A stretch of 64,000 nucleotides of DNA, from contig OY726560.1 of the NCBI GenBank assembly GCA_963383645.1, positions 69,627,023 to 69,691,022 of the forward strand, read 5' to 3'. Below, piece after piece: positions 1,301 through 49,280 of the stretch; positions within the stretch are counted from its first letter, which is position 1, and each line of letters starts with the position of its first letter. The notes beneath the pieces were generated by a model that ran no database searches, had not been told where the DNA came from, and was given only the letters and a program-made list of their open reading frames with translations. The position numbers and the translations under genes are program-made. This DNA is from Muscardinus avellanarius. Its lineage: Eukaryota > Chordata > Mammalia > Rodentia > Gliridae.

Positions 1301-1650
1301 GCAGAATATGTACTTTCCTTAGCCAAATGTCCACTTCTGGTTTTAAAACTCTACCACTTTGTTGAATTCATTTAGTAGTCTAACAGATTTTGTGTAGTGT
1401 CTAGGATTATGTGTTAAATCTTTTCTTTTTATATAAAACTATAGCTAAGCATGTTTTCACTGCCTTATGGTAATATGTCTCTTCTTAACCTTTGTATGAT
1501 TTGGAATTTTGGATGTGTGTTATTTTTATTATTATTTTATATCATTTTCTGTTTCTGAGACTTTTTTGACATTACTAATTAATATCATAGCCATTCATAC
1601 AATAACTATTTAGGGAATTATAATGATTCAAAGTTCACCACCATCCTATT

Positions 1651-1667
1651 AAAAAATGTTCACTATT
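1651..1667. repeat. Left target-site duplication of composite element 1
   Basis: AAAAAATGTTCACTATT here matches AAAAAATATTCACTATT at 4400-4416 with one mismatch. The pair encloses the whole composite, including both exon-like segments. Confidence 0.8.
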
Positions 1668-2057
1668 TGGGGAAGGAAGATGGCAGCTGCCGCGCCCACC
1701 AAAAAGAACATGCATTCCTTGGAGAAGCCCTAGACACCAGATTTGGTTTAATATCTGAATGGGACAATTTAAGGAGACATTTCCAGCTGTACTTCCTATC
1801 TAGAATATAGGAGAGAGAGTGGATAATGGCAGAATTAGAAGCAAGATGACAAGGAGGTGCCTGCCATGCAAGAAAAGTGATTTTTGGAAGAGCATCCCAG
1901 AAGAGATTAAAGAAAAGACCACTTCAGCCGCGCATGCTGGGGAACTCTTAACAACATGCCTTGTAAGAAAAATGATCTGGACGTGTTGGAGGGAGCCCAA
2001 CAGTGCTTGGAGGGAAGCCCAGCTGCATGTCCCAGGGAGCTCAGTGCGCCTGGCCAC

Positions 2058-2202
2058 TATACTTCTCTGTGCTGCACTGGGGGCTCTGATGTGGTCAGAA
2101 CAGCAGATCCTGCTCTACACGGTGGGGCTGTGGGCCTCCACTCATGGATGGGAGATAAAATTCATTGCTGCTAAGTGCTCAATCTCACAACCTCCTCAAA
2201 AC
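2058..2202 (+). pseudogene. CACNA2D3 first-exon-like segment, copy a
   Basis: The frame reads LLCAALG, then WSEQQ, GLWAS, and WEIKFIAAKCS. These line up in order with the N-terminus of the calcium-channel auxiliary subunit alpha-2/delta-3 (signal-peptide end, SEQQ, VKLWASAFGGE, IAAKY) as I remember it. At DNA level gggagataaaattcattgct is nearly what I recall for the gene. The match stops near the QLLQK position, where the sequence changes to cacacatactatcttctc, a junction shared with copies b and c. It is an exon-derived fragment inside a mobile element, not a working gene. The link to CACNA2D3 is recognition without alignment. Confidence 0.65.
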
Positions 2203-2231
2203 ACACATACTATCTTCTCTTATTAAAAAAT

Positions 2232-2900
2232 ATTGGAGAGGGACCAAGATGGCAGTGGCAGCAGCCAGGATTCAGGAGATGCAAACAAATCCTATCCAAT
2301 CTACCTTAAACTTTTGGGAAAAAATCCCTCTGAAGGGGGACTGCTCTTGCCACACATGCTTAAGAATTCTGGACATCATACCATGTAAGGAAGGAGCTCA
2401 GCAGAGAACCAGGAGGAAGGCAGCGGCAGCAGGAGCGGCAGAGGCCAGTATTCAGGAGAGGCAGAGATCTGATTCAATCCACCTTGATCTTTTGAAGAAA
2501 TCGCCCCAAAGGTAGAATGCTACCACTGCACATGCTCGAGAATTTGGGACAACATGCTGTATGAATAAGGTGCTCGGAAGAGAACTGAGATGGCTGTGGT
2601 AGAAGCAGCAGTGGTCAGTATTTGGTAGAGGCAGAGATCTAATCCAATCCACTTTAAAATTTTAAAGAAATATCCTCAAAGGTAGACTTCTACTGCCACT
2701 CATGCTCAGGAATTCTGGAAAACATACTGTGTGGGAAAGGTGTTCAGAAGAGAACCAAGATGGTGGTGGCAGCAGCGGCAATGGTGGTGACCAGTATTTG
2801 GCAGACAGACCAGTTCAATCCACCTTGAACTTTTGAGGAAATCTCCCCAAAAGTAGACTGCTCCTGCCACACATGCTTGGGAATTCTAGATAACATGCTA
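2232..2900 (+). repeat. Tandem array of four ~170-bp promoter-like monomers
   Basis: Anchor motifs of the type aaccaagatggc recur at about 2243, 2407, 2583 and 2753 (spacing 165-176). Each is followed by a cagtattcaggagaggcaga block, a ccaccttgaacttttgaaga block and a cacatgctcaggaattctgg block. CAAGATGGC is a YY1-like core. Short tandem monomers with such motifs are the promoter type of mouse L1, so a promoter role is likely by analogy. The same monomer occurs at 15111-15354 and in decayed form at 1690-2000. Confidence 0.75.
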
Positions 2901-2919
2901 AGAGGTAAAAGGGTTTGGG

Positions 2920-3107
2920 GTGAGCTGGGCGTGGTGGCGCACACTTGTAATACCCATGCTTGGGAGCAGAGACAGGAGGATCATGCAGATTTGTAGCCAG
3001 TCTCGCTGGCTCAAAAAACCCTGTTTCCAAATAAAAATATAAAAATAGGTCTGGGAGTGTATCCCGGAGGTAGAAGGGCTTCCACGAACCCCAGTACCAC
3101 CAAAAAA
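2920..3107 (+). mobile_element. B1-dID SINE inside composite 1
   Basis: B1 head (gctgggcgtggtggcgcaca) followed by a short ID-like tail ending ccagtaccacc and poly-A. The TSD AAAAGGGTTTGGG flanks it at 2907-2919 and 3108-3120. It separates the last monomer from exon-like segment b. Confidence 0.88.
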
Positions 3108-3198
3108 AAAAGGGTTTGGGTGTATCAGAGGGAGCCCCACATAGCCGGGATGAGCTGTCACACTGCATGTTCTGGGAGACATCAGCCCTCATAGCCAC

Positions 3199-3343
3199 CA
3201 CACTCCTCTGCACAGAGCGGGAGGCCAGGGTGCACGTGGAGCTTCAGAGCCTGCTCTCTGAAACGAAGCTGTGGACCTCTGCCTTTGGAAGGAAGACAAA
3301 ATTCATTGCCACTAGGTATTTGGGGTTCCAGCTTTTGCAAAAG
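3199..3343 (+). pseudogene. CACNA2D3 first-exon-like segment, copy b
   Basis: The frame reads TTLLC, then ETKLWTSAFGRKTKFIATRY, then FQLLQK, collinear with segments a and c and with the remembered CACNA2D3 N-terminus. The SEQQ block has decayed to VELQ. The shared leader agggagccccacatagcc (about 3130) and the shared trailer ending in ttctcatattaaaaaaaa are also present, so the mobile unit is larger than the coding match (about 3121-3375). Non-functional. Confidence 0.65.
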
Positions 3344-3384
3344 ATATGTACTGCTTTCTCATATTAAAAAAAAAAAATAGAAGA

Positions 3385-3591
3385 ACGCTGGGCATGGTGG
3401 TGCATGCTTGTAATCCCCACACTTGGGAGGCGGAGACAGGAGGATCACGCAAGTTCAAAGCCAGCCTCGCTGGCTTAAGAGACCCTGTTTCCAAATATAA
3501 ATATTTTTAAAAATAGATCATAGGTCTCCAGGATTGTAGCCCAGAGGTAGAAGGGTTTCCAGGAGCCCCAGTACCACCAAAAAAAAAAAGG
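3385..3591 (+). mobile_element. B1-dID SINE inside composite 1
   Basis: Short-form B1-dID: B1 head, then a tcgctggcttaagagaccct junction, then an ID-like tail with gtagcccagaggtagaaggg and ccagtaccacc plus poly-A. It lies between the exon-like segment and the VNTR. Confidence 0.85.
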
Positions 3592-3635
3592 AAGAAAAAA
3601 GGGAACATCTGTAGATGACCTGCTCATAGTGACAG

Positions 3636-4055
3636 AGACCAGAGCCTGATGCACAGCAAGGCCGGTGCCAGGGCCAGTGAGGCTGGGATCAGAGCCTGCC
3701 ATGTGGTGAGGCCTGTGCTGGGGCCACCAAGGCTGGGATAGGATCCTTCCTTAAGGCAAGGCCCATGCCAGGGTCATCAAGGCCGGGATCGGAGCTTGCC
3801 ATGAGGCCAGGCCGGTGCTGGGGCATCCGAGGCTGGGATCAGAGCCTGCCATGGGGCCAGGGCCATGCTGGGGTCAGTAAGGCTGGGATAGGATTCTGCC
3901 TTAAGGCAAGGCTGGTGCTGGGGCCTCCAAGGCCAGGATCTGAGCCTGTCATGAGGCAAGGCCTGTGCTGGAGCCAGCAAGGCCAGGATCAGAGTCTGCC
4001 AGGTGGCAAGGCTGGTGCCAGGGCCTTCAAGAATGGAACCTGAACCTGCAATGAG
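3636..4055 (+). repeat. 50-bp VNTR of composite 1
   Basis: Seven full 50-bp units start at 3679, 3729, 3779, 3829, 3879, 3929 and 3979, with partial units on both sides. Each begins aaggctgggatcagagcctg or a close variant and ends in a ggtgctggggcc-like block. GC-rich and out of character with its AT-rich surroundings. A shorter, diverged version follows the exon-like segment at 18424-18600. Confidence 0.9.
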
Positions 4056-4399
4056 GTATACACAGAGAAATATCACAGAAAAAAAAATCAGATGTTTTCC
4101 CTAATATGCAAAAACTAGGAAGAAATAGGAGGAAATCCAGTTGAAGAAAGGGCCCTATGGAGAAGCTATTAAGGTAACCAATCAGAGAGGATGGGATGGG
4201 GGAAGATGGAATCTCTTTAAAGCACATGATGTACTTAAACAAATATATCAAAGTTAATCAAGCATGGGATCAAAAGGGGGAGGGAATGGGATGGGGTTTA
4301 TATAAAGGCTAATTGGATGATGTATGCTTATATTTCCTCACAAGTCTTGTATTCCATTGAGATGTATGACTACAATGCACCAATAAAAATATATTAAAT
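4056..4399 (+). other. L1-type 3' tail of composite 1
   Basis: Starts near atatcacagaaaaaaaaatc, runs through ttccctaatatgcaaaaact and cacatgatgtacttaaacaa, and ends in gactacaatgcaccaataaa with an A-rich tract. The same tail ends composite 3 (19386-19705), the L1 at 7949-10424 (reverse strand) and, in variant form, the half-L1 copies. It is the likely recognition end for L1 reverse transcriptase. Confidence 0.8.
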
Positions 4400-4441
4400 A
4401 AAAAATATTCACTATTCTTGAGCTTTAAAAAATGAAATGTA

Positions 4442-7937: not shown

Positions 7938-7992
7938 AAGTGCAGGGTTTCTTATTTTTAATTTTTATTGGTACATTATAGTCATACATCTT

Positions 7993-8179
7993 TTTTTTTA
8001 TGGTACTGGGGTTCCTGGAAGCCCTTCTACCTCCGGGCTACACTCCCAGACCTATTTTATATTTTTTTATTTGGAAACAGGGTCTCTTAAGCCAGCGAGG
8101 TTGGCTCCGAACCAGCGCAATCCTCCTGTCTCTGCCTCCCAAGCGCAGGAATTACAAGCGTACACCACCACGCCCGACA
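7993..8179 (-). mobile_element. B1-dID SINE (short form) in the L1 tail
   Basis: Reverse-oriented copy: poly-T, ggtactggggttcctggaag, then the B1 head reversed. TSD ATAGTCATACATCTT at 7978-7992 and 8180-8194 with one mismatch. Confidence 0.9.
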
Positions 8180-8340
8180 ATAGTCGTACATCTTAATGGA
8201 GTACAAGATGGTAGAGACATCCATGCACACATCACCCAATTATCTCTTGCCCAATTCCCACCCCAATTCCTCCCCCTCCCTCCTTCCTATGTTTGGCTGA
8301 GTGATTGATATTGGTATGTTTGTTAAAGTACCTCATGTGC

Positions 8341-8555
8341 AGCTGGGCATGGTGGAACATGCTTGTAATCCCAGCATTTGGGAGGCTGAGACAGGATTGC
8401 GCAGGTTGGAAACCAGCCTCAGCTACTTAGTGAGGCCCTTTGCAACTCAGTGAGGCACTGTTTCAAAATAAAGAATAAAAAAAATAGGCCTGGGGGTGTC
8501 GCTCAGAGGTAAAATGCCCCTGGGTTCCATCCCCAGTACCAAAAAACAAAAAATT
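8341..8555 (+). mobile_element. B1-dID SINE (long form) in the L1 tail
   Basis: Full B1 head with agctacttagtgaggccctt, ID-like tail and ccccagtaccaaaaaac end. TSD AAGTACCTCATGTGC at 8326-8340 and 8556-8570. Confidence 0.9.
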
Positions 8556-8735
8556 AAGTACCTCATGTGCATTAGAGAATTTCCCTCTTCCCCCTTCCAT
8601 CCCCTCAGTTAAGTCACCTTATTTGCTCATCTGTAGTATCTCCTTCTTCCTCTAGAGTTCCTCCTATGACCCATTTTCTCCCTATCTTCCACATATTAGT
8701 GAGAGCATCCAATTTCTTATATTTTGTGACTAATC

Positions 8736-10424
8736 TTACTTAGCATAATGTCCTCCAGTTCCGTCCATTTCCCTGTAAATGACATAATTGTTTTTCTTTA
8801 TGGCTGAGTGAAATTCCATTCTGTTTATATCCCATAGTTTTGTAATCCATTCATCTGTTGATGGACATCTTGGCTGGTTCCATAGTTTGGCAATGGTGAA
8901 TTGTGCAGCTATGAACATAGATGCACATGCATTAGTTTGGTAGTTTGGCTTCCATTCTTTTGGGTAGATACCCAGAAGTAGTATTTCTGAATCATATGGT
9001 AAATTTATTCTCATTCTTTTGAGGATCCTCCATACTGATTTCCAAAGTGATTGCACTAATTTGCAACCCCACCAATAATGTTTTAGAGTTCCCACTTCTT
9101 CACATCCTCACCAGCATTTGTTGTTGTTTGTGTTTTGAATAATTGCCATTCTAGTTGGAGTTAGGTGAAATCTTAGGGTAGTTTTGATTTACATCTCTCT
9201 GATTGCTAATGATGTTGAGAATTTTTTCATGCATTTATTGGCTATTTGAATTTCTTCTTTCATAAAGTGTCTATTTAGTTCACTTGCTCATTTTTTGATT
9301 GGGTTGTTTTTCTTAGTGCTGAGCTTGAGTTCTCTGTATATTCTAGATATTAGTCCTCTATCAGAGAAGTAGTTGGCAAAAATTTCTCCCATTCTGTTGG
9401 CTCTCATTTGAGGTTCTTGATAATTTCCTTTGCTGAACAGAAGCTCTTCAGTTTAATGCAATCCCACATATTGATCCACCTTTTAATTTGTTGTGCCTTT
9501 GGGGTTTTGTTGAGAAAGTTTTTACCTGTGCCTCTGTGTTGCAGTTTTGGACCTATGCCTCTTCAAGGAGCCTCAAGGTCTCTGGTCTAATTTCCAAGTC
9601 TTTGATCCATCTTGAATTGACTCTAGTGCAGGGTGAGAAAGTGGGATTAATTTCCATTTTTCTGCATATGGCTAACCAGTTTTGCCAACACATTTGTTGA
9701 ACAGGTTATCTTTTTTTCAGTGTGTGTTTTGGGCCCCTTTGTCAAAAATCAATTGGCTGCCGGGCATGGTGGTGCATGCTTGTAATCCCCTCACTTGGGA
9801 GGCGGAGACAGGAGGATCATACAGGTTCAAAGCCAGACTCCCTGGCTTAAGAGACCCTGTTTCCAAATAAAAATATAAAAATATGTGTCTGGAAGTATAG
9901 CCCAGAGGTAGAAGGGTTTCCAGGAACCCCAGTACCACCAACAAAAAACAAACAAACAAAAACCAAAAATCAATTGGCTGTTAAGTGTGCAAATTTGTTT
10001 CTGAGTCTTCTGTTCCATTGGTCTATGTCTCTGTTTTTGTGCCCATATCATGCTATTTTTTTATTACAATGGCTTTGTAGTATAGTTTAAAGTCAGGTAT
10101 AATAATTCTTCCTGCATGGTTTTTGTTGCTGAGAACTATTTTGGCTATTCTGGGGTTTTGTTGTTCCAAATGAATTTAAGGACTGATTTTTTTATGTCTG
10201 TGAGGAATGATCTTGGTAATTTAGTGGGTATTGCGTTGAATCTGTAGATCACTTTTGAAAGTATGGCCATTTTAATGATATTTATTTTCCCTATCCATGA
10301 ACATGGAAGATCTTTCCATCTTCTAAAGTCGTCTTCAATTTTTTTCAATGTTTTATAATTTTCTTTGTAGAGGTCTTTTACCTCTTTAGTTAAGTTTATC
10401 CCTAAGTATTTTATTTTTTGTGGG
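8736..10424 (-). pseudogene. L1 ORF2 C-terminal fragment (broken)
   Basis: Minus-strand translations include [40 protein letters not shown] and FIWNNKTPE (10145-10424), and later WWGCKLVQSLWKSVWRILKR, LGIYPKEWKPN and MEFHSAIKKNNYVIYREMDG (8736-9095). These are standard L1 ORF2 reverse-transcriptase-tail and C-terminal blocks. The endonuclease and catalytic RT core are absent because of 5' truncation. Frames are broken and a SINE sits at 9760-9964. Confidence 0.85.
9760..9964 (+). mobile_element. B1-dID SINE (short form) in L1 ORF2
   Basis: B1 head, tggcttaagagaccctgttt junction and ccagtaccacc end. TSD AAAAATCAATTGGCTG at 9744-9759 and 9965-9980, exact. Confidence 0.92.
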
Positions 10425-15110: not shown

Positions 15111-15354
15111 TATTAAATACATAATCTCCTTAAAAGTAGACTGCTACTTCCACACATGCTCAGGAATTCTGGACAATATACTATGTAAGAAAAATGTTCA
15201 GGAGAGAACCAAGATGGCAGCGGCCAGTATTCAGGAGAGGCAGACAGATCCAATCCAATCCACCTTGAACTTTTGAAGAAATATCCCCAAAAATAGACTT
15301 CTCCTGCTCCACATGCTCAGGAACAGTGGACAACATATTATGTAAGAAAAATGT
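15111..15354 (+). repeat. Promoter-like monomers (about 1.5 units)
   Basis: gaaccaagatggcagcggcc at about 15206, followed by the cagtattcaggagaggcaga block and ccaccttgaacttttgaaga, as in 2232-2900. Its 3' end is cut by half-L1 copy A at the sequence AAGAAAAATGT. Confidence 0.8.
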
Positions 15355-15362
15355 GGAGAAAA

Positions 15363-15382
15363 GCGGGGCTTAAGAGCCCCGC
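15363..15382. promoter_or_regulatory. 5'UTR hairpin of half-L1 copy A
   Basis: GCGGGGCT, TAAG, AGCCCCGC forms a perfect 8-bp stem with a 4-nt loop. It is kept in copy C (49261-49280) and has one mismatch in B (34608-34627). It lies close to the RNA 5' end. Confidence 0.8.
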
Positions 15383-16124
15383 TAACAACTAATCTCCATT
15401 ACCACAAAATCAGCGCCTTTCATAGCCAGAAAACACCATCACCAGAAAAACAAAAAATCACCAGGCTCCAGAGAGAAAGCAGACTGAGAACAGAGCACAG
15501 AGCCACATAGGAGATACACCGGCCTCACGCCCGAGACCGCGGCAGCAGCGCCATACTGCCGGCGGCAGCGGCGACTTCACCGGACGGCTACAGCAAGCCG
15601 AGGTAAGCCGCTGCAGAACAGCCAGGTGGGATTTCTCGCCGCAGGTAAAATCTAAAGCTCCCAGTGGCTGAGCTCAGCACACGCTGCATGGATTCAGAGT
15701 GGAAATCAAAACCAAGAAGAAATACGCCAGCCTCACGGCCAAGGGCGTAGCAGCGGCGCCATATTGCCACCAGCGGCAGCAGCAGAGAATTCACCGAGTC
15801 CAGTACAGCTACATCTGCATACTCAAGAACAGTGAGTCAAATTGCGGGCCACAGAGGAGAAATCCCAGTACTGTACTCCCTGGAACTTGACCCAGTGGGG
15901 GAGGGGCGTTGGCAGAGATATCACACCATAGGAGAACGTGTAACCTGGCACCCCCCACAGTCTAAAGCAGCCTCTATCGACTCTCTGGGTCGGAGATTCT
16001 GTGATACAACCCAGTAAAGGAGTAGTGGGGTCTGAGATACTACTGACTCGAGATCCAGAGCACCTTAAGTGAAGTCATAGTGACCCAAGGGAAGAACCCA
16101 GAGAAGGCACAAACTTCCTAAATC

Positions 16125-17039
16125 ATGGGAAAGAGGAATAATACTGGAGCAATTAATGCCCACAACCCCACAACATCAGAACCCGATAAAACAGAAAATC
16201 AGAGATTTCTAGAAGATCAAATCAGGAAAATAACTGTAGAAATAATAGAGGTGCTTCAAAAAGAACTCAGAGAGAGCCAAAAAGAGATAAAGGATGCAAT
16301 TAATGAAGTAAATGCCTCAATTCAAAGCAAAAACAACTGATTAGAACACATGGAGAACAGAATCTCGCTCTTAGAAGATGATCATTCCAAAAATGAATGC
16401 ATAGTTTCTAATCTAGAAAAAATATCCGACATCAGGAATCTGATATTGAAGAAATATGGGCCCATTTTAAGAGAGCTAACCTAAGAATAATTGGAATAGA
16501 GGAGGGAAAAGAAAGTGAAACCAAAGGGATCAACAATCTCTTCAAGGAAGTAATAGCAGAAAATTTTCCAAACATAGAGCAAGAGGTTGATAAACAGATC
16601 CAGAAAACTTATAGAACTCCCTTTAGACAGGATCAGAGAAGAGGATCTCCACACCACATAATTGTCAAAATGACCAATGTGGAAGCCAAGCAGAGAATCT
16701 TAAAGGCAACAAAAACAAAGGGCCAAGTGACATTCAGAGGCAAACCAATTAGAATCACTCCAGACTTCCCAAACCAAGTCATGAGAGCCAGAAGGCTTGG
16801 AGTAACATATTCCAAACTCTGAAAGAAAACAACTTCCAGCCAAAAATTTCCTACCCAGCAAAACTTTCTATCAAATTAGGTGGAGAAATAAGAAGCTTCC
16901 ATGACAAACAGAAACTGAAGGAATTTATGTCTTCAAAACCAGCACTAGAGAAAATACTCAAAGAGATTAACTACAAAGAAGCAATTGGTAACACACACCA
17001 GAACCAGAGAAACAAGAGTTTCCATCCAACAGACAACTA
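16125..17039 (+). pseudogene. Half-L1 ORF1, copy A (stop and frameshift)
   Basis: Starts ATGGGAAAGAGGAATAAT and follows the ORF1 of copy B almost base for base. It is broken by a TGA after QSKNN (16338-16340), where copy B reads on with QLDHMENRISLL, and by a one-base loss near 16420 in the poly-A run before tatccgacat. The C-terminal half still reads as TFRGKPIRITPDFPNQVM-type ORF1p sequence and ends at the same HPTDN stop. The RNA-binding chaperone role of ORF1p is known for the family. This copy cannot make the full protein. Confidence 0.9.
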
Positions 17040-17760
17040 AGATTGGTTATCTGTGGAGATTCATTACTTATGTTAGTCTTTTACCTATCTCTAAATGGTA
17101 TTGTTTGCCTTTATTGTTGTTAATTTTTAGGATTTCTAGTTGGAATATTAATATACCTTCAGATATAGCATTTGGAAATATTTTATCCCATTCTATTAAT
17201 AAGTGTTAACTCTGTTTACATTGTCTTTGGATATACAATATTTATTATTTTTAGGGAGTTTGTATACTCTTCTGTTGCCTGTGCCATTGAAATCATATCC
17301 AAGAAATCACTGCCAATTTCAATGTTGTGAGGTTTTATGACCCAGATTTTCTCCTAAAAGTTTATAGTCTTAAGATTTATATTTAGGTCTTTTATCTATT
17401 TTGAGTTAATATTTGTATATGGGATTAGGTAAGGGTCCAACTTTATTCTTTTCCATGTAATTATTATGTTTCAACAATATTTAGCTAAAAGATTATTATT
17501 TCCACCACCAAATGTTCGTGGAAACCTTGTCAAAAATAACTTGACAATATAAGGAAGAATTTAGCTCTAGGCTTTTATTTAGCTCCAATGGTTTATATAT
17601 CTGCCTTTAGAATAGTACTACACTGTTTCAATTATTGTAGCTTTATATGGTTTGAAATCAGAAAATATATATCTTCTAGCTTTGTTCTTTTTCAAGATCG
17701 TTTTGGGTATCTAGAGTCCATTTTCAATATTAGGATAGATTTTTTTTCCTGAAAAATAAA
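17040..17760 (-). pseudogene. Antisense L1 ORF2 segment, copy A
   Basis: Read on the minus strand the order is that of an old L1 ORF2 between the late RT region and the C-terminus: a gtagtactattctaaaggca block, a ggacccttacctaatcccat block, a taaaagacctaaatataaat block and an agaatgggataaaatatttc block. It is full of stops. It lies opposite to ORF1 in the same element. Confidence 0.85.
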
Positions 17761-18193
17761 TATATAAATATATGATAGTTTCATCTAAAAAAAATAGAAA
17801 ACAAATATTCTCTGGTAAGAAAGAAAGCAAAAAGAAATATTGAAATGTTATCTTTAAGTTATCAAAAGCTTGGTATCAGACAAATGAAACTGTTATGTGA
17901 GATTATCATTTTTAATTTTGGATAAATTGCTATAATACTAGATGTCAACCACTAAGCCAAGCATGGGAGGGAGGGATGGGGAGAGAATGGGGTGGGGTTC
18001 GGGTGAGGGCTGACTGGGCGATGTGTGCTGTATGTCTACAAAAGTTTGTATCCCACTATGATGTATGAATACAGTGCACCAATAAAAAAAAATTGAAAAC
18101 AAACAAAAAAAAAAAGAAAAATGTTCGGGGCACATCAGAGGAAGCCCCGCATAGCCAGGTTGTCCAGCGTGCAGCACATCCCCGGAGATGCGG

Positions 18194-18355
18194 ATGGCAC
18201 TCAGGGCCTCTGTGCTCCTCTGTGCAGCACTGGGGGCTGGGGTGCACTCAGAGCAGCAGAACCTGCTCTCCATGGTGAAGCTGTGGACCTCTGCCTTTGG
18301 AGGAGAGACACAATTCATTGCTACTAGGTATTTGGGCTCCCAGCTTTTGCAGAAG
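18194..18355 (+). pseudogene. CACNA2D3 first-exon-like segment, copy c (best preserved)
   Basis: Opens at an ATG and reads MALRASVLLCAALGAG, VHSEQQNLLSMVKLW, TSAFGGETQFIATRY, LGSQLLQK without interruption. Compared by eye with the CACNA2D3 N-terminus as I recall it, about two thirds of positions agree, including SEQQ, LS.VKLW, SAFGGE, IA..Y and GSQLLQK. That region is the end of the signal peptide and the start of the mature alpha-2 chain. After QLLQK the match stops and an acacatactgttttctc trailer common to a and b follows. Leader ggaagccccgcatagcc (18139) is shared with b. It is a captured exon-like module, not a gene. Confidence 0.7.
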
Positions 18356-18423
18356 ACACATACTGTTTTCTCCTAGTTTAAAAAAAAAAAAAGGAAGAAA
18401 AAAATGGGAACCACTGTAGATGA

Positions 18424-18600
18424 CCTGTCCACAATGACAGAGACCAGAGCATGCCACACAGTTAGGCTGGTCCCAGGGAAAGCAAGGCTGAGATCGGAGC
18501 CTGCAAAGCAGCGAGGCCAGTGCCAAGGCCTGAGAGACCCGGTCCAAGTGGCAGGGCCAGGACCAGGGCCTGCTGCACAGAAAAGGGCCAGTGGGTCCCT
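18424..18600 (+). repeat. VNTR-like units of composite 3
   Basis: aaggctgagatcggagcctg and neighbouring GC-rich blocks (gaggccagtgccaaggcctg, gggccaggaccagggcctgc) are diverged relatives of the 50-bp units at 3636-4055, in the same place relative to the exon-like segment. About three units remain. Confidence 0.7.
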
Positions 18601-18702
18601 GCAATCATGTGGTCAGGATGCACTTGAAGCTGCCACTGCCTCACCCCATCTCTCAGCAGATCTCCAGATCCAAGTGACCTCTATTAAAAAATTGGGTGTG
18701 AG

Positions 18703-18895
18703 GGCGGGCGTGGTGGCACACACTTGTAATCCCCACGCTTGGGAGGCTGAGACAGGAGGATCGCGCAGGTTCGAAGCCAGCCGCGCGCTAGCTTAGGAGA
18801 CCCTGTTTCCAAATAAAAATGTAAAAAATAGGTCTGGGAGTGTAGTCCGGAAGTAGAAGGGCTTCCAGGAACCCCAGTACCAACAACAACAACAA
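18703..18895 (+). mobile_element. B1-dID SINE (short form) in composite 3
   Basis: B1 head with gggcgtggtggcacacactt, short tail and ccagtaccaacaacaac. TSD ATTGGGTGTGAG at 18691-18702 and 18902-18913, exact. Confidence 0.92.
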
Positions 18896-18989
18896 AAAAA
18901 AATTGGGTGTGAGTGGATCATCTCATCAAAGTCACTCACCTTCTGGTTGTCATGGTTTCAGCAAATGGGAAATAGTGTGGAAAGTAAAA

Positions 18990-19385
18990 GTAGGACTTCC
19001 AAGGAAGAGATAAACTGTAATTGATCGGGTGTGGAGAAGTAGAAACTCTAATACATTATTGGTGGAATTGCAAATTAATGCAACCACTTCGAAAACAGCA
19101 TGGAAGATCCTCAGAAGAATGAAAACAAACTTTCCATATGACCCAGCAATACCATCTATGGGTATCTACCCCCAAAAATGAAAACCAAACTACCAAACCA
19201 ATGCAAGAGTATCTATGTTCATAGATGCACAATTCATTATTCTCAAACTATGGAACCAGCCAAGATGTCCATCAACAGATGAGTGAATTAAAAAACTATG
19301 GGATATGTACACAATGGAATTTTACCCAGCCATAAAGGAAAACAAAATTATGGCATCTACAGGGAGATGTCACAAAAAAGTAAGA
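18990..19385 (+). pseudogene. L1 ORF2 3' end within composite 3
   Basis: Plus-strand blocks attattggtggaattgcaaa, ccatatgacccagcaatacc, ccaagatgtccatcaacaga and acacaatggaattttaccca are the classic end of L1 ORF2. Frames are broken. It joins directly to the shared 3'UTR (19386-19705). Confidence 0.85.
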
Positions 19386-19717
19386 AATCAGATGCTTTCC
19401 CTAATATGCAAAAACTAGGGAGAAATGGGAACTCTAGTTGAAGAAGGGGCCCTATAGAAGAGCAAATAAGGTGTCCTTTCTGAAGGGATGGGCGGGAGAT
19501 GGAATCTCTTTAAAACACATGATGTACTTAAACAAACATATCAAAGTCAATCACTAAATCAAGCATGGAATGAGAGAAGAGGAGGGAACGGGATGGGGAT
19601 CAGATAAAGGCTAATTGGGTGATGTGTGCATGTATATCTTCACAAATTTTGTATTCCATTAAGATGTTTGACTACAGTGCACCAATATAAATATATTAAA
19701 AAGAAAACAAATACATA

Positions 19718-34580: not shown

Positions 34581-35374
34581 CTTCCGGGAAGATGGCGACC
34601 GAGAAAAGCGGGGCTTAAGAGTCCCGCTAACAACCAATCTCCATTACCACAAAAAGAGCGCCTTTCATAGCCAGAAAACACCATCACCAGAAAAAGAAAA
34701 AAAAAACCACCAGGCTCCAGAGAGAAAGCGGACTGAGAACAGAGCTCAGGGCCACAGAGGAGACACACGCGCCCGAGGACGCGGCAGCAGCGCCATACTG
34801 CCGGCGGCAGCGGCGAACTCAACGGACGGCTACAGCAAGCCAGGTGAGCTGCTGCGGAACAGCCAGGCGGGATCTTTCGGCGCAGACAGCATTTAAAGCT
34901 CCCAGTGGCTGAGCTCAGCACACACTGCAGGGATTCAGATGGAAATCAAAACCAGAGAAGAAAAAATACGCCAGCCTCATGGCCGAGGGCGTGGCAGAGG
35001 CGCCATATTGCCACCGGCGGCGGCAGCAGCAGCAGTGAATTCACCGAGTCCAGTACAGCTACATCTGCGTACTCAAGAACAGTGAGTCAAATTGCGGGCC
35101 ACAGAGGAGAAATCGCAGTATTGGGCCTCCTGGGACTTGACCCAGTGAGGGAGTGGTGGTGGCAGAGATATCACACCATAGGAGAAAGTGCAACCTGGCA
35201 CCCTCCATAGTTTAAAGCAGCCTCTATCGACTCCCTGGGTCGGAGACTCTGTGATACAACCCAGTAAAGGAGTAGTGGGGTCTGAGATAATACAGACTCG
35301 AGATCCAGAGCACCTTAAGTGAAGCCATAGTGACCCAAGGGAAGAACCCAGAGAAGGCACAAACCTCCGAAATC
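34581..35374 (+). promoter_or_regulatory. Half-L1 5'UTR with internal promoter features (copy B)
   Basis: ETS-like and YY1-like motifs at 34581-34597, hairpin at 34608-34627, and two CGG/CAG-rich blocks (ccggcggcagcggcgaac and ccggcggcggcagcagcagc). A consensus-like splice donor CAG|GTGAGC lies at 34841-34849. A second GTGAGT lies near 35082. Both donor-like sites recur in A and C. Promoter function is inferred from L1 practice. Confidence 0.6.
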
Positions 35375-36292
35375 ATGGGAAAGAGGAATAACACTGGAGT
35401 AATGAATGTGCACAACCCCACAACATCAGAACCTGATAAAACAGAAAATCAGAGATTTCTAGAAGATCAAATCAGGAAAATAACTGTAGAAATAATAGAG
35501 GTGCTTCGAAAAGAACTCAGAGAGAGCCAAAAAGAGATAAAGGATGCAATTAATGAAGTAAAGGCCTCAATTCAAAGCACAAACAACCAATTAGACCACA
35601 TGGAGAACAGAATCTCGCTCTTAGAAGATGAGCAATCCAAAAATGAATGCATAGTTTCTAATCTAGAAAAAAATATCCAACAGCAGGAATCTGACATTGA
35701 AGAAATATGGACCCATCTTAAGAGAGCTAACCTAAGAATAATTGGAATAGAGGAGGGAAAAGAAAGTGATACCAAAGGGATCAACAATCTCTTCAAGGAA
35801 GTAATAGCAGAAAATTTTCCAAATATAGAGCAAGAGGTTGATACACAGATCCAGGAAACTTATAGAACTCCCTTTAGACAGGATCGGAGAAGAGGATCCC
35901 CATGCCATATAATTGTCAAAATGACCAACGTGGAAGCCAAGCAGAGAATCTTAAAGGCAACAAAAACAAAGGGCCAACTGACATTCAGAGGCAAACCAAT
36001 TAGAATCACTCCAGACTTCCCAAACCAAGTCATGAGAGCCAGAAGGGCTTGGAGTAACATATTCCAAACTCTGAAAGAAAACAACTTCCAGCCAAAAATT
36101 TCCTATCCAGCAAAACTTTCTATCAAATTAGATGGAGAAATAAGAAGCTTCCATGACAAACAGAAACTGAAGGAATTTATGTCTTCAAAACCAGCGCTAG
36201 AGAAAATACTCAAAGAGATTAACTACAAAGAAGAAATAGGTAACACTCACCAGAACCAGAGAAACAAGAGTTTCCATCCAACAGACAACTAA
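35375..36292 (+). CDS. L1-type ORF1 protein of half-L1 copy B (intact)
   Basis: 305 codons from ATG (MGKRNNTG) to TAA. The open frame extends 15 codons upstream without an ATG (it begins at a GTG), so 35375 is the chosen start. Domains in order: polar N-terminus (1-30); a coiled coil with heptad spacing (about 31-125, including KELRESQKEIKDAINE and MENRISLLED); the RRM-like core (about 128-225: NLRIIGIEEG, HIIVKMTNVEAKQRILKA); and the C-terminal domain (about 226-290: TFRGKPIRITPDFPNQ, NFQPKISYPAKLSI, KEFMSSKPALEKILKE). ORF1p of L1 is a trimeric RNA-binding chaperone of the retrotransposition particle. It differs from copy C at roughly 20 positions. It may still be expressed or may be a recent relic; the sequence alone cannot say. 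Confidence 0.9.
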   Translation: MGKRNNTGVMNVHNPTTSEPDKTENQRFLEDQIRKITVEIIEVLRKELRESQKEIKDAINEVKASIQSTNNQLDHMENRISLLEDEQSKNECIVSNLEKNIQQQESDIEEIWTHLKRANLRIIGIEEGKESDTKGINNLFKEVIAENFPNIEQEVDTQIQETYRTPFRQDRRRGSPCHIIVKMTNVEAKQRILKATKTKGQLTFRGKPIRITPDFPNQVMRARRAWSNIFQTLKENNFQPKISYPAKLSIKLDGEIRSFHDKQKLKEFMSSKPALEKILKEINYKEEIGNTHQNQRNKSFHPTDN

Positions 36293-37010
36293 GATTGGTT
36301 ATCTGTGGAGATTCATTATTTATGTTAGTCTTTTACCTATCTCTAAGTTGTATTGTTTGCCTTTATTGTTGTTAATTTTTAGGATTTCTAGTTGGAATAT
36401 TAATATACCTTCAGATATAGCATTTGGAAATATTTTATCCAATTCTATTAGTAACTTTTAACTCTGTTTACATTGTCTTTGGATATACAATAGTTTCTTT
36501 TATTTTTTAGGGAGTTTGTATATTCTTCTGTTGCCTGTGCCATTGAAATCATATCCAAGAAATCACTGCCAATTTCAATGTTGTGAGGTTTTATGACCCA
36601 GATTTTCTCCTAAAAGTTTATAGTCTTAAGATTTATATTTAGGTCTTTTATCTATTCTGAGTTAATACTTGTATATGGGATTAGGTAAAGGTCCAATTTT
36701 ATTCTTTTCCATGTAATTATTATTTTTCAACAATATTTAGTTAAAAGATTATTATTTCCACCACCAAATGTTCGTGGAAACCTTGTCAAAAATAACTTGA
36801 CAATATAGGGAAGAATTTAGCTCTAGTCTTGTATTTAACTCCAATGGTCTATATATCTGCCTTTAGAACAGTACTACACTGTTTCAATTATTGTAGCTTT
36901 ATATGGTTTGAAATCAGAAAATATATATCTGCTAGCTTTGTTCTTTTTCAAGATCATTTTGGGTATCTAGAATTCATATTCCATATTAGGATAGATTTTT
37001 TTCTGAAAAA
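36293..37010 (-). pseudogene. Antisense L1 ORF2 segment, copy B
   Basis: Begins directly after the ORF1 stop. On the minus strand it carries the late ORF2 blocks described for copy A, with many stops. The sense strand therefore holds the reversed text, such as atttaggtcttttatctatt and gtccaattttattcttttcc. Junctions with ORF1 (at gattggttatctgtgga) and with the linker agree with A and C. Confidence 0.88.
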
Positions 37011-37356
37011 TAAATATATAAATATATGATAGTTTCACCTAAAAAAACAGAAAAAAAATATGCTCTAGTAAGAAAGAAAGCAAAAAGAAATATTGAAATG
37101 CTATCTTTAAATCATCAAACGCTTGGTATCAGACAAATGAAACTGTTATGTGAGATTATCATTTTTAATTTTGGATAAATTGCTATAATACTAGATGTCA
37201 ACCACTAAGCCAAGCATGGGAAGGAGGGATGGGGAGAGAATGGGGTGGGGATCGGGTGGGGGCTGACTGGGCGATGTGTGCATGTATGTCTACAAAAGTT
37301 TGTATCCCACTATGATGTATGAATACAGTGCACCAATAAAATAAAATTAAAAAAAA

Positions 37357-39501: not shown

Positions 39502-42500
39502 CTAGTTTGGGCATATTAGAGGAAATATATGTACCTTCTCCTTCTGTGCTTGGCTGATCTCACTTAACATAATGTTCTCCAGGGCTTTCCATCTTCCTGC
39601 AAATGATGTAATTTTGTTTTTCTTTATGGCTGAATAGAATTCCATTGTGTGTATTTCCCACAGTTTTGCTATCCATTCATCTGTTGATGGAGATGTGGGT
39701 TGGTTCCATATTTTGGCTATTACGAATAGTGCTGCTATGAAGATATGCATATGTTGCTGTAGTTCTCTGAATTCAACCCCTTTGGAAAGATACCCAAGAG
39801 TGGTAGAACTGGATCATATGGTGGATCTATTCCCACCTTTCTTAGGAATCTCTACACAGATCTCCATAGTGGCTGAACTAGTTTGCATTCCCACCAACAG
39901 TGTAAAAGAGTTCCTCTTTCCCCACATCCTCTCCAGCATTTGTTGTTATTTGATTTCTTTATGCTTGCCACTCTGACTGGGGTTAGATGGAATCTCAGTG
40001 TAGTTTTGATTTGCATTTCCCTGATGGCCAGTGATGTAGAACATCTTTTCATGTATCTATTGGCCCTTTGTATCTCTTCTTTTGTGAAGTGTCTATTTAG
40101 TTCATTTGCCCATTTCTTGATTGGGTTGTTTGTTTTGCTAGTGTAGAGTCTTTTGAGCTCTTTGTATATTCTAGATATTAGCCCCCTATCAGAATGGTGG
40201 CTGGTAAAGATCTTTTCCCATTCTGTAGGCTTCCTCTTTATGTTGTTGATACTTTCCTTTGATGAGAAGAAACTTTTTAGTTTGATGTTATCCCACTTGT
40301 TAATTCTTGATTTAATTTCCTGAGCTTTGGAGGTTTTTTTGAGAAAGTTACTGCCTGTGCCAATATGTTGTAGTGTTGAACCTATGCTCTCCTCTACTAA
40401 CTTCACAGTCTCAGGTCTAATTTCTAAGTCTTTGATCCATCTTGAGTTGATTCCTGTGCTTGGTGAGATATAGGGGTTTAGATTCATCTTTTTACAAATG
40501 GTTAGCCAGTTCTCCCAGCACCATTTGTTGAAAAGGCTGTCTTTTCTCCAGCATATGTGTTTGGCCCCTTTGTCAAAGATTAATTGACTAAAGATGTGTG
40601 GGTTTGTTTCTGTATCTTCTATTCTAATCCACTGGTCAGTATATCTGTCATTGTGCCAGTACCATGCTGTTTTTACTACTATTGCTCTATAGTATAGTTT
40701 GAAGTCTGGGATTGTGATGCCTCCTGCATGTTTCTTATTGTTGAGAATTGCTTTGGCTATTCTGGATCTTTTCTTTCTCCTTATAAAGTTCATAATTGAT
40801 TTTTCTAGGTCTCTGAAGAATGTCACTGGTATTTTAATGGGAATTGCATTGAATCTATAGATCAGTTTGGCAGAATGGCCATTTTGATGATATTCTGCCT
40901 ATCCATGAGCACGGGAGATCTTTCCATCTTCCAAGGTCTTCTTCAATTTCTTTCTTTAATGTTTTATAGTTTTTGTTGTAGAGGTCTTTTACATCTTAGG
41001 TTAGGTTTATTCCTAGGTATTTTATTGGTTTTGAGGTTATAGTGAATGAAATTGGTTTTTTTTTTGTTTCTTTCATTGCGGATTCGTTGTTGGCATAAAG
41101 AAAAGCCACTGATTTCTTTAGGTTGATTTTGTAACCTGCGACTTTGCTGAATTTGTCAATCAGTTCCAGAAGTCGTTTGGTTGAGTGCTTTGGGTCTTCC
41201 AGATAAAGGATCATGTCATCTGCAAATAAGGATAATTTTAATTCCTCTCTTCCTATGTGAATTCCTTTGATTTCCTTCTCTTGTCTGATTGCTGCAGCAA
41301 GAGTCTCAAGGACTATATTGAAAAGGAGTGGTGATAGTGGGCATCCTTGTCTTGTTCCTGACTGTAGCGGAAATTCTTGCAGTTTTTTCCCATTCAATAT
41401 AATGTTGGCTTTGGGTTTGCAGTATATTGCCTTAATGATGTTGAAGTACTTTCCTTCTATCCCAATTTTTTGCAGTGTTTTTAACATAAATGGGTGTTGG
41501 ATTTTGTCGAATGCTTTTTCAGCATCTATTGCTATGATGATGTGGTTTTTGTTCTTGGTTCTATTTATGTGGTGAATAACATGTATTGATTTGCATATGT
41601 TGAACCAGCCTTGTTTTTCTGGGATGAAACCGACTTGGTCATGATGTATTATTCTCTTGATATAGTTTTGAATGCGTATAGCTAGTATTTTGTTTAGAAT
41701 TTTTGCATCTATGTTCATTAAGGATATTGGTCTGTAGTTTTCCTTTCTTGAGGTATCTTTATTTGGTTTGGGGATTAATGTGATACTGGCCTCATAGAAG
41801 GAATTTGGAAGAGTTCCATCTCTTTCAATTTCCCGGAACATGTTGTGAAGTATTGGTATTAGTTGCTCACTGAAGGTTTTGTAGAATTCAGCTGGGAACC
41901 CATCTGGGCCTGGGCTTTTCTTTCGTGGAAGAATTTTTATTGCTGCTTCTATTTCTTTGGTTGCTATTGGTTGGTTTAGGCTTGCTATATCCTCTTGGCT
42001 GAGTGTAGGAAGGTTAACTGTGCTTAGAAATCTATCAATTTCTTCCATGTTTTCAAGTGTATTGGAGTATAATTTTTTTTTTTTTTTTTTTTGGTGGTAC
42101 TGGGGTTCCTGGAAGCCCTTCTACCTTCTACCGGGCTACACTAGCAGACCTATTTTTTACATTTTCATTTTGGAAACAGGGTCTCCTAAACCAGCGCCCA
42201 CGGCTGGCTTCGAACCTGCGCGATCCTCCTGTCTCTGCCTCCCAAGCGCGGGGATTACAAGCGTACGCCACCACGCCTGGCTGGAGTATAAATTTTTAAA
42301 GTAGTTTCTGATAATCTTTTTAATTTCTTCACTATCTGTGGTGATATCTCCTTTTTCATTTATAATTTTGATAATTTGAGTTGATTCTCTTTTTCTTTTG
42401 GTTAGGTTGGCCAGGGGTTTATCAATTCTATTAATCTTTTCAAAGAACCAACTTTTTGTTTTATTGATTCTTGGATTGTTTTTTTATTCTCTATTTCATT

Positions 42501-43538
42501 TATTTTTGCTCAAATTTTAATGATTTCTTGCCTTCTGCTGGCTTTGGGAATAGACTGTTGCAGAATTTCTAGTCCTTGAGTTGTGTCATTAGCTTCTTTA
42601 CTTGGTGGTTCTCTGTCCTTCTTATGTGGGCACTCAATGCAATAAACTTTCCTCTTAATACTGCCTTCATGGTGTCCCATAGATTTTGGTAGGTTGTGTC
42701 TCTGTTTTCGTTTGATTCCATAAATTTATTTATTTCTTCCCTAATTTCTGCTCTTACCCATTCATCATTCAATAGTGTATCATTCATTCTCCATGTATTT
42801 GAATACTTTCTTTCGAGTTTTCTGTTGTTGATTTCTACTTTTATTCCATTGTGGTCTGAAAAGATGCAAGGAATTATATTACATCTTTTGAATTTGCTGG
42901 TATTTTCTTTGTGTCCCAGGATGTGGTCTATTTTGGAAATGGTTCCATGGGCTGCTGAGAAGAATGTGTATTCTGTAGTTTCTGGTTGAAATATTCTGAA
43001 AATGTCTATAAGGTCAATTTGGTTTATGGTTTCCTTTAGTTCTAAAGCATCTTTATTCATCTTTTGCCTTGAAGATCGATCCAGTGGTGTGAGAGGCGTA
43101 TTAAAGTCTCCCAGAATTATTGTATTTGGGTCTACTTGGGATCTGGTGTCCAGAAGGATTTGTTTTACAAATGTGGTTGCACCCACATTTTGGGCATAAA
43201 TATTTACTATCATTACGTCTTCTCGGTGTATTGTTCCTTTTAATAAAAAGGAAGTGCCCTCATTTGTCTCTTTTGATGTGTTTTAGTTTAAAGTCTGTTT
43301 TGTTGGATATCAGTGTTGCTACCCCTGCTCTTTGGTCACCAATGGCATGGTATATCTTTTTCCATCCTTTCACTTTCAGTCTGTGAATGTCTTTGGCTGT
43401 AAGGTGAGTTTCTTGCAAACAGCATATATTTGGATTATGTTTCCTAATCCACATTGCCAGTTTATGTCTTTTGATTGGTGAGTTAAGTCCTTTGACATTA
43501 AGAGATATTATTGAAATATGATTTTTGTTTTCTGCCAT
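39502..43538 (-). pseudogene. L1 ORF2 (endonuclease and reverse transcriptase), frameshifted
   Basis: The span without the SINE is close to the usual 1,275 codons. It starts at ATGGCAGAAAAC. The endonuclease begins with SLNVKGLNSPIKRHKL and CCLQETHL, is frameshifted near 43260, then continues with [10 protein letters not shown] and [14 protein letters not shown] follows at about 42569, and more stops lie before the SINE at 42073-42281. The RT domain (42048-40996) is well kept: [66 protein letters not shown] and the catalytic FADDMILY. A frameshift follows near 40996. The tail (40826-39852) reads [13 protein letters not shown] and [15 protein letters not shown], then the final block (39750-39502) MEFYSAIKKNKITSFAGRWK. 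It cannot make a full-length enzyme. Confidence 0.93.
42073..42281 (-). mobile_element. B1-dID SINE (short form) in L1 ORF2
   Basis: Poly-T, ggtactggggttcctggaag with a small duplicated ttctacc, and a B1 head reversed. TSD TGGAGTATAA at 42063-42072 and 42282-42291. Confidence 0.9.
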
Positions 43539-43583
43539 TTTGTGTTCTGTCTATTCTTGGGTGGTTTGGTCTTTCTTCTTTAC

Positions 43584-44561
43584 TTAAATGGCCCACTTAT
43601 TAACTTCCTCTCTTCTCTGGTTCTGAAGTCTGCTTCTTTTTTCTTCCTTATGGTTTATTTCTTTAAAAATTTTCTCTAGTGTTGGCTTTGAATTCATGAA
43701 TTTTTTAAGATTCTGTTTATCTTGAAAGACTTTGGTTTCACCATTGATCTTGAATAGTAGTTTTGCTGGATAAATAAGCTTTGGTTGAAAGCTATTTTCT
43801 TCCAGGTTCTGAATCACGTCGTACCAGTCTCTCCTAGCATTCATGACCTGGGTTGTATAGTCTGGGGTGATTCTTATTGTTTTGCCTCTATATGTCACCC
43901 ATCCTTTTGTTCTCACTGCTTTTAAGACTCCTTCCTTGGCCTCTATGTTGGTCATTTTGGTTATTATGTGGCATGGAGTGGTCCTTCTTTGGTCCTGTCT
44001 CAGTGGAGTTCTGTATGCCTGCTGGACATGAAGATCCAAGTCTCTTTCCATGTTTGGAAAATTCTCTGAGATTATTTCTTTTAAGAGATTACAGATGCCC
44101 TTGGTCTGTACCTCTATCCATTCTTCAATGCCTATTATCCATAAGTTAGGACACTTCATATTATCCCATATTTGCTGGATGTTTAGGTTTTGTTGCTGTA
44201 GAGATTTCTGTATATCGCTGACCGTGTTTTCGGTTTTGGATGTACTGTCTTCTAACATTGATACTCTGTTTTCCATTTCATCTAATCTTCCAGAATTTCT
44301 TTCTATTGCTATCTTCATTTCACTTATTGACTCTTTCATTTCATTCCAGACCTCTTTTTGATTCTTTCTTAGTGTTTCAATTTCCTCTTTCATTTCTTGT
44401 AGACTTGTTTTAAAGCCTTTCATCATATTGTAAATCAAGATTCTGAACTCCCCTTCTTGCATTTCTTGTAGGTCAGTATTCGTGATTTCTGTTGTCTCTT
44501 CATTATTCTTGGTTCTCATATCTATAGCTTTCTCTGTCCTGTTTTTCTGATTTCTACCCAT
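43584..44561 (-). CDS. L1 ORF1 protein (open frame, 325 codons)
   Basis: Starts MGRNQKNRTEKAID and ends EVNKWAI. An uninterrupted frame with coiled coil (about 35-135: KEEIETLRKNQKEVWNEMKE, RLDEMENRVSMLED), RRM-like core (NLWIIGIEEW, HIITKMTNIEAKEGVLKA) and C-terminal domain (TYRGKTIRITPDYTTQVMNA, NSFQPKLIYPAKLL). It is a clear relative of the half-L1 ORF1 but well diverged, so the two belong to different L1 lineages. The frame is open although its partner ORF2 is dead. Expression would need the 5'UTR, which is now split by half-L1 C. The role in the L1 particle is established for the family. Confidence 0.88.
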   Translation of the reverse strand: MGRNQKNRTEKAIDMRTKNNEETTEITNTDLQEMQEGEFRILIYNMMKGFKTSLQEMKEEIETLRKNQKEVWNEMKESISEMKIAIERNSGRLDEMENRVSMLEDSTSKTENTVSDIQKSLQQQNLNIQQIWDNMKCPNLWIIGIEEWIEVQTKGICNLLKEIISENFPNMERDLDLHVQQAYRTPLRQDQRRTTPCHIITKMTNIEAKEGVLKAVRTKGWVTYRGKTIRITPDYTTQVMNARRDWYDVIQNLEENSFQPKLIYPAKLLFKINGETKVFQDKQNLKKFMNSKPTLEKIFKEINHKEEKRSRLQNQRREEVNKWAI

Positions 44562-45111
44562 CGTTTGTGAGTATTATGCTTAGTCCAATCTTAGTATTAG
44601 GAGTTTAGAAGTATCGGCAAATCAGCAGAGCTTTTCCAATGTTGAGGGTGGGTGATGGGGGAGGAGCTGGGGTGATGGGTAAAGGAGTCGGATTAGGTAG
44701 AGGATATGTTTAGGTTGAGAAAGACTTTAAGTATGATAAGGTAATATTTTGCTGAAAATGAGAGAGAGAGTTAACTAGTAGGACTCTTGTCATTAGTAGA
44801 GTAAGTATGGAGATATGAAATACTTTGAGTATCAAACAAGGAGGTATATTATGGGGAAAAGTTTTGGGGGAAAAGAGTATATAGGTTAGTGTGGGGAAGT
44901 TTGTAAGAGGGGTAATGGAAGGAGCAGACAAACATAAAAAATATCCACACAAGTTACCAAGACTATTATGTAATCAAAGCAAAAGAAAAGAAAAACCAAT
45001 CAAAAGAGGAAAATGAAAAAAGGAAGGAAAGAGGAAGAAAGAGGAAAAAAGGACAAGAATAAAATAAAAGGAACTAGCAGCTGTTTGAAACCAGAAAACA
45101 AGGCAAACTAT

Positions 45112-45156
<45 letters not shown>

Positions 45157-46549: not shown

Positions 46550-46564
46550 CTGTGCCCAATCTTT
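46550..46564. repeat. TSD of half-L1 copy C (3' side)
   Basis: CTGTGCCCAATCTTT, exact match to 49310-49324. Confidence 0.95.
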
Positions 46565-46899
46565 TTTATTTTTTTATTGATGCACTGTATTCATACATTA
46601 TAGTGGGATACAAACTATTGTAGACATACATGCACACATCGCCCAGTCAGCTCCCACCCGATCCCCATCCCATTCTCTCCCCATCCCTCCCTCCCATGCT
46701 TGGCTTAGTGGTTGACATCTAGTATTATAGCAATTTATCCAAAATTAAAAATGATAATCTCACATAACAGTTTCATTTGTCTGATACCAAGCTTTTGATG
46801 ACTTAAAGATAACATTAGAATATTTCTTTTTGCTTTCTTTCTTACCAGAGAATAATTTTTTTTCTATTTTTTTAGGTGAAACTATCATATATTTATATA

Positions 46900-47600
46900 T
46901 TTATTTTTCAGAAAAGAAAATAAGAGAAAAAAGAAAAAAAGAAAAAAAGAAAAAGAACAAAGCTAGAAGATATATATTTTCTGATTTCAAACCATATAAA
47001 GCTACAATAATTGAAAGAGTGTAGTACTATTCTATAGGCAGATATATAAACCATTGGAGTTAAATAAAAGCCTAGAGCTAAATTCTTCCCTATATTGTCA
47101 AGTTATTTTTGACAAGCTTTCCACAAACAATTGGTGGTGAAAATAATAATCTTTTAACTAAATATTGTTGAAAAATAATAATTACATGGAAAAGAATAAT
47201 ATTGGACCCTTACCTAATCCCACATACAAGTATTAACTCAAAATAGATAAAAGACCTAAATATAAATATTAAGACTATAAACTTTTAGAAGAAAATCTGG
47301 GTCATAAAACCTCACAACATTGAAATTGGCAGTGATTTCTTGGATATGATTTCAATGGCACAGGCAACAGAAGAGTATACAAACTCCCTAAAAAAAAAAA
47401 AATTATATATCCAAAGACAATGTAAACAGAGTCAAAAGTTACTAATAGAATGGGATAAAATATTTCCAAATGCTGTATCTGAAGGTATATTAATATTCCA
47501 ACTAGAAATCCTAAAACTTAACAACAATAAAGGCAAACAATACCATTTATAGATAGGTAAAAGACTAACATAAGTAATGAATATCCACAGATAACCAATC
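46900..47600 (+). pseudogene. Antisense L1 ORF2 segment, copy C
   Basis: On the plus strand the old ORF2 text reads directly: gtgtagtactattctatagg, ggacccttacctaatcccac, aaatagataaaagacctaaa, cttttagaagaaaatctggg and agaatgggataaaatatttc, in ORF2 order. Stops are frequent. The opposite orientation to ORF1 is shared with A and B. Confidence 0.9.
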
Positions 47601-49260: not shown

Positions 49261-49280
49261 GCGGGGCTCTTAAGCCCCGC
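49261..49280. promoter_or_regulatory. 5'UTR hairpin of half-L1 copy C
   Basis: GCGGGGCT, CTTA, AGCCCCGC: the same 8-bp stem as in copy A, close to the element 5' end. Confidence 0.8.

Follow-up and report, generated by a model that had tools for sequence, protein, structure and literature searches.

A CACNA2D3 first exon inside a probably L1-mobilised, SVA-like composite retroelement of the dormouse Muscardinus avellanarius

How does the coding start of a calcium-channel subunit come to stand three times within one 64,000-nucleotide stretch of a dormouse genome? The stretch, called the window here, covers positions 69,627,023 to 69,691,022 of the forward strand of contig OY726560.1 (assembly GCA_963383645.1). 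A sequence-only reading of it had described three segments as the N-terminal part of the alpha-2/delta-3 subunit CACNA2D3, each stopping at the same point, and proposed that an exon had been captured by a retroelement and then amplified. We found the three segments where that reading had placed them, with their ends at 2202, 3343 and 18355 exact. The start that it gave for the third, 18194, did not hold, as exon homology begins upstream of 18188; the equivalent of the gene's ATG would lie near 18151.

The piece at 18188-18355 on the plus strand translates as MRMALRASVLLCAALGAGVHSEQQNLLSMVKLWTSAFGGETQFIATRYLGSQLLQK, 56 codons that resemble the CACNA2D3 N terminus; the other two segments are versions of it that have decayed further. 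In a single comparison with the human N terminus, the window copy had 28 identities in 41 residues (E 1e-16). The CACNA2D3 letters used were verified against named database records (best matches 98% over residues 1-130), and a protein search with them returned named CACNA2D3 proteins from many vertebrates. Element copies elsewhere in the genome match the gene better than the window copy does; the best match to the exon 1 peptide, which contains one stop and is 86% identical over 56 residues, is itself at an element copy. Another copy, L037, showed 34/39 identities to a named CACNA2D3 versus 17/37 to a CACNA2D4 segment. A database protein search with L037 gave four matches, two CACNA2D3-like by name and two unnamed or hypothetical, and, with short proteins alone counted as candidates, no element-like predicted protein in another species. 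The claimed similarity to exon 1 was borne out by translated BLAST against four proteins: each of 40 exon copies, taken from the two window elements and 20 further loci (22 in all), matched CACNA2D3, the weakest with an E value of 2e-4. Searches of Pfam and PDB with the short peptide gave no match, and neither did a search of Rfam.

The three segments belong to two loci, as had been proposed, and both could be given better bounds. They share a non-coding leader and trailer, and the L1 type of 3′ tail assigned to them also held. The first locus, element A (1668-4405), is made up as follows.

1650-1667 (+), left target-site duplication (TSD); right copy at 4399-4416 (TAAAAAATGTTCACTATT / TAAAAAATATTCACTATT)
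1668-1964 (+), 5′ head (P5), starting near AAGATGGC
1965-2230 (+), first exon unit: leader, CACNA2D3 exon 1 piece to 2202, trailer
2231-2915 (+), 170-bp monomers
2923-3114 (+), inserted SINE
3102-3385 (+), second exon unit, exon piece to 3343
3387-3591 (+), inserted SINE
3589-4056 (+), junction block J (3589-3655) and GC-rich VNTR of 50-bp units (3656-4056)
4062-4405 (+), L1 3′ end and A-rich tail, 80% identical to 19359-19707

The VNTR holds 7.4 copies of its unit. The TSD of element A matches at 17 of 18 bases (score 15), and 195 random pairs from the window, in which slightly smaller stretches were compared, scored 8 or less. Element B (15123-15355 and 18112-19707) is split by a nested ORF1-only L1, and its own TSD is a weak candidate only.

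15123-15355 (+), 5′ part of element B: 5′-truncated monomers
15356-18102 (+), HAL1-like element (ORF1-only L1), nested in element B, with TSD AAGAAAAATGT at 15344 and 18114
18112-18187 (+), leader of the exon unit
18188-18355 (+), CACNA2D3 exon 1 piece, stopping at the K68 codon
18356-18391 (+), trailer common to the aligned copies, beginning ACACATACTG
18392-18540 (+), junction block J and short VNTR
18543-18702 (+), middle block M1
18705-18900 (+), SINE between M1 and M2
18901-19026 (+), middle block M2, with 40 matches scored at 93-100%
19027-19707 (+), L1 ORF2 end (19027-19372) and L1 3′UTR with A-rich tail (19373-19707)

The many SINEs of the window look like the squirrel/dormouse/beaver B1-dID type.

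Across the assembly (2.497 Gb in 104 contigs), the same parts recur as a composite of about 1.8-3.2 kb. We mapped 20 loci (places 2-21 of 40 scored), which were selected on the exon match and therefore carry the exon in 20/20 cases by construction. Their blocks follow one order: head, exon unit, monomers, exon unit, J and 50-bp VNTR, and then either M1, M2, ORF2 end and 3′UTR or the L1 3′UTR directly, with the A-rich tail at the end. Monomers were present in 20/20, the VNTR and the L1 3′ part in 19/20 each, two exon copies in 17/20, J above threshold in 17/20 and the head in 14/20. The long form, with M1-M2-ORF2 end, was seen ten times (L009-L012, L014, L016, L018, L020, L021 and L026) and the short form eight times (L015, L017, L019, L022-L025 and L028); one locus has both or is nested (L013) and one is ambiguous (L027). 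The central VNTR varies in length among loci; its 50-bp units and GC content of 0.63 agree with the GC-rich units of about 30-50 bp in the known VNTR composites (SVA, LAVA, PVA and FVA). The element does not begin with the exon, which is preceded by the head and, in some loci, by monomers. The proposal of exon capture followed by amplification is supported; the VNTR composite, the doubling of the exon and the two structural forms formed no part of it.

Twenty-three further loci came from the protein searches with CACNA2D3 residues 1-181 and the exon 1 peptide. One is the gene itself; in the other 22, which include four repeats of places already sampled, the exon is present with a more or less complete set of the other blocks. 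When loci were instead chosen by their head match alone, the exon lay downstream in 13 of 14, and the remaining one (L067) had none within view. Several loci whose heads are closest to that of element A contain long monomer arrays. At one place (L032, the same as L049), head, exon and monomer are inverted beside an L1 3′ end, an arrangement that fits 5′ inversion or two adjacent copies. Comparison of the junctions placed the exon unit on a monomer border and showed that the two exon units have similar trailers, which suggests that monomer and exon were duplicated in tandem.

The many copies foreseen by the sequence-only reading were recovered as 40 to 151 scored matches per genome search, among them 40 to the head at 88-100%. 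The first-look candidates, of which 40 or 150 were scored in each search, numbered 3678 for the exon DNA, 4917 for CACNA2D3 residues 1-181, 5191 for the exon 1 peptide, 2536 for the head, 1490 for M2 and 2212 for the monomer. These counts of unconfirmed candidates point to a family of thousands of copies. Among 26 copies of the head the mean pairwise identity was 0.86, and among 37 exon copies, with the two exon units pooled, it was 0.79; the closest pair of heads reached 0.94; most of the sampled copies are therefore old.

The ends of the copies resemble those of L1-mobilised sequences. An A-rich 3′ end follows the L1 3′UTR in 12 of 13 loci inspected (in L012 the end was misplaced). Both ends were visible at 15 loci; their TSD scores exceeded the 99% point of 210 mismatched pairs in five, including L014, where the matching stretch does not adjoin the head, and lay within the chance range in ten. 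Given element lengths of 1.8-3.2 kb and the mapped blocks, there is no space for ORF2 beyond its 3′ end. A poly(A) tail, TSDs in some copies and the lack of an own reverse transcriptase are as in non-autonomous elements mobilised by L1, whose machinery would have been supplied in trans.

To test the break, we turned to the gene. Genuine CACNA2D3 lies on the minus strand of contig C18: residues 68-108 map to 28370026-28370148 and residues 123-181 to 28219418-28219594, each 95% identical. A distance of 150 kb separates these two exon matches, and residues 109-122 fall within it, so that the introns are long. The upstream exon reads ...ctttacag followed by AAA TAC AAA GAA..., so that exon 2 begins at residue 69, in phase 0, after a cag acceptor. 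We then profiled 63 of 73 translated element matches from 40 loci, ten having been dropped as too short. The share of matches carrying the gene's residue was 0.90 at Q67, 0.86 at K68 and 0.00 at K69, and stayed at 0.00-0.16 over residues 69-83. Since identity collapses between residues 68 and 69 and exon 2 starts at residue 69, the captured piece is exon 1, ending at the gene's splice donor as located by way of exon 2. The earlier supposition that the common break is an exon-intron border is thereby confirmed, on the genome's own exon 2 and the 63 element matches.

A direct comparison with the species' own exon 1, which had also been envisaged, failed, because two protein searches of the assembly did not show the genuine exon. 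It was absent from the matches listed (at least 151 for residues 1-181 and 150 for the exon 1 peptide); apart from downstream-exon matches and a paralogue-like match, those to exon 1 all had 86% identity or less. Among the matches listed on C18 there was likewise no exon 1 match near the gene, upstream of 28370148, and exon 2 is intact. An assembly gap, masking, the filter of the first-look search or a real change in the gene may account for this, and comparison of the donor and the 5′UTR at the DNA level was consequently not possible.

We favor the reading that an SVA-like, non-autonomous composite mobilised by L1 trapped CACNA2D3 exon 1 by splicing, then doubled it and spread, and we give it a probability of roughly 0.87. 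In this model, an element RNA would have gained CACNA2D3 exon 1 and been attached to the 3′ end of that exon. Most likely, the exon 1 donor was spliced, in cis or in trans, to an acceptor in the element RNA. The exon piece and the adjoining 170-bp monomer would then have been duplicated in tandem, which would explain the two exons per full element, and the composite would have spread by target-primed reverse transcription.

An unlikely alternative is that an autonomous L1 family has the exon unit as its 5′UTR and gave rise to the composites through internal deletion. The head does begin with an L1-like AAGATGGC, the 3′ end is that of an L1, and the 170-bp monomers resemble the tandem promoter units of rodent L1s. 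Such an origin fits poorly with the absence of ORF1 after the exon in three sets of mapped loci (20, 22 and 15), HAL1-like insertions aside, in a check made through the HAL1-like block, in views of 3-8 kb and at loci chosen by exon or head match. It also fits poorly with the head and monomers, which gave no match at E <= 1e-6 to the 5′ regions of the window's L1 or HAL1-like elements.

In place of splicing, recombination at the DNA level or a template switch during reverse transcription could also have joined exon and element, which we consider rather improbable. The acceptor side of the splice is not reconstructable from the element copies, and the internal position of the exon, behind the head and sometimes monomers where that of SVA_F1 is 5′-terminal, requires an extra step in the splicing model. 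Non-splicing routes to L1 chimeras are, moreover, described (PMC13174262). Against these points, the break falls exactly on the exon 1/exon 2 border, which without splicing would be a coincidence or would mean that an already spliced RNA was copied.

Stops occur in 32 of 93 exon matches. The differences by codon position are 0.22/0.23/0.28 in 39 EX1-like copies and 0.17/0.15/0.21 in 31 EX2-like copies, with 17 gapped and six unclassed matches omitted; the slight excess at third positions could reflect weak or past constraint. Because of the stops and these nearly flat differences, the exon is probably not retained as protein, and a coding role is unsupported. Its retention as a small secreted or membrane peptide is accordingly very improbable, even though open frames of 60-223 codons surround the exon in many copies and the piece includes the start-codon region and a signal-peptide-like stretch. 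That the similarity is chance inside an unrelated repeat might be suggested by the shortness of the peptide and the silence of Pfam and PDB, but with every tested copy matching CACNA2D3 and the match ending on the true exon border, a result that contradicts it, we give this idea almost no credence.

The captured exon may instead be a non-coding passenger or, more likely, a piece of 5′ regulatory region. The start of the head at AAGATGGC resembles the YY1 site of L1, but of the 76 monomers whose start could be seen only 29 contain AANATGG, which lends weak support to a YY1-like site. We favor a regulatory role because a first exon derives from a promoter region and because the MAST2 exon of SVA_F1 sets a precedent: according to PMC6139936, that exon acts as an internal promoter, by experiment.

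The nearest known parallels are SVA_F1 and pt_SVA_D6, and the dormouse composite resembles them, the gibbon composites and the human mRNA/LINE-1 chimeras in its way of working. The human family SVA_F1, in which the first exon of MAST2 is spliced to SVA (84 copies; PMC6139936), has a single exon at its 5′ side that replaces most of the Alu-like part, and the SVA 3′ end comes from an endogenous retrovirus. In contrast, the exon of the Muscardinus composite is internal and usually doubled, accompanied by monomers and an L1 3′ end, and the composite has thousands of unconfirmed candidate copies. The same source describes pt_SVA_D6 of the chimpanzee, with the first exon of STK40 in 94 elements and an acceptor that is not reconstructable. 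This family parallels the dormouse composite in gaining a first exon and in the piece stopping at the exon's 3′ end, but it has a primate SVA backbone and one captured exon at the 5′ side. The gibbon elements LAVA and PVA possess a central VNTR, LAVA having an L1 fragment in its 3′ part and PVA sequence of PTGR2 exon 4 (PMC4432496). Both have the CT-repeat/Alu-like 5′ region, which we did not see in the dormouse composite, and in PVA the VNTR is fused to a gene piece that contains some intron sequence. A 5′ CT-hexamer/Alu-like region is common to SVA, LAVA, PVA and FVA. Inspected by eye only, the 5′ ends of the dormouse elements, where the head begins near AAGATGGC, had no CT-hexamer. As the exon is not 5′-terminal and inspection by eye showed no CT/Alu-like 5′ region, we class the composite as an SVA-like variant and not as an SVA.

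Among human mRNA/LINE-1 chimeras (MAP3K13, FHIT, CREM and others), 5′ exons ending at donors are joined to L1 in genes with long introns (PMC13174262), and CACNA2D3 likewise is a long-intron gene. That survey comprised 17 chimeric insertions, mostly with near full-length L1, and no amplified non-autonomous family (PMC13174262). VNTR composites are described as hominoid-specific (PMC4432496). Among the titles and abstract openings listed from the open-access literature, none mentioned a retroelement carrying CACNA2D3 or an SVA-like rodent element. We put at even odds the broader proposal that VNTR composites arose independently outside hominoids and that here a first exon and its promoter region became a promoter module that is internal, duplicated and placed between tandem monomers. 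If this is true, capture of a first exon together with a GC-rich VNTR would be a convergent recipe for successful L1 parasites and would not be peculiar to SVA. As a family of its own in another mammal, and apparently a much larger one, the composite provides an independent replicate of the exon-trapping SVA families with 84 and 94 copies. It allows us to ask whether a GC-rich first exon, a VNTR or an L1 or A-rich tail is among the common features that favor such parasites. The signal-peptide exon of a calcium channel is also spread widely in the genome and may act there as a source of promoters, splice donors or start codons.

HAL1 resembles the composite in being a non-autonomous relative of L1, and the three HAL1-like copies in the window have the same type of 3′ tail; it differs in retaining ORF1, of which we saw none in the composite. 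The three copies, at 15356-18102 (+), 34590-37356 (+) and 46562-49298 (-), are 93-94% identical and have TSDs of 11-15 bp. L1 ORF1 is present in all, though decay has shortened it in the first, and behind it lies an antisense piece of L1 ORF2 (tblastn E 1.5e-11 or better); the trio represents an ORF1 element that has been amplified and contains a remnant of ORF2 in inverted orientation. In an L1 at about 39590-49520 (-), for which no TSD of its own appeared in the single stretch tried, ORF1 has a long frame, and ORF2, interrupted by a SINE, is spread over three. The presumed 5′ region of this L1 is split by one of the HAL1-like elements, with TSD CTGTGCCCAATCTTT. Finally, at about 7948-9730 (-) there is an L1 3′ part with two SINEs nested near its end, one of them in the opposite orientation.
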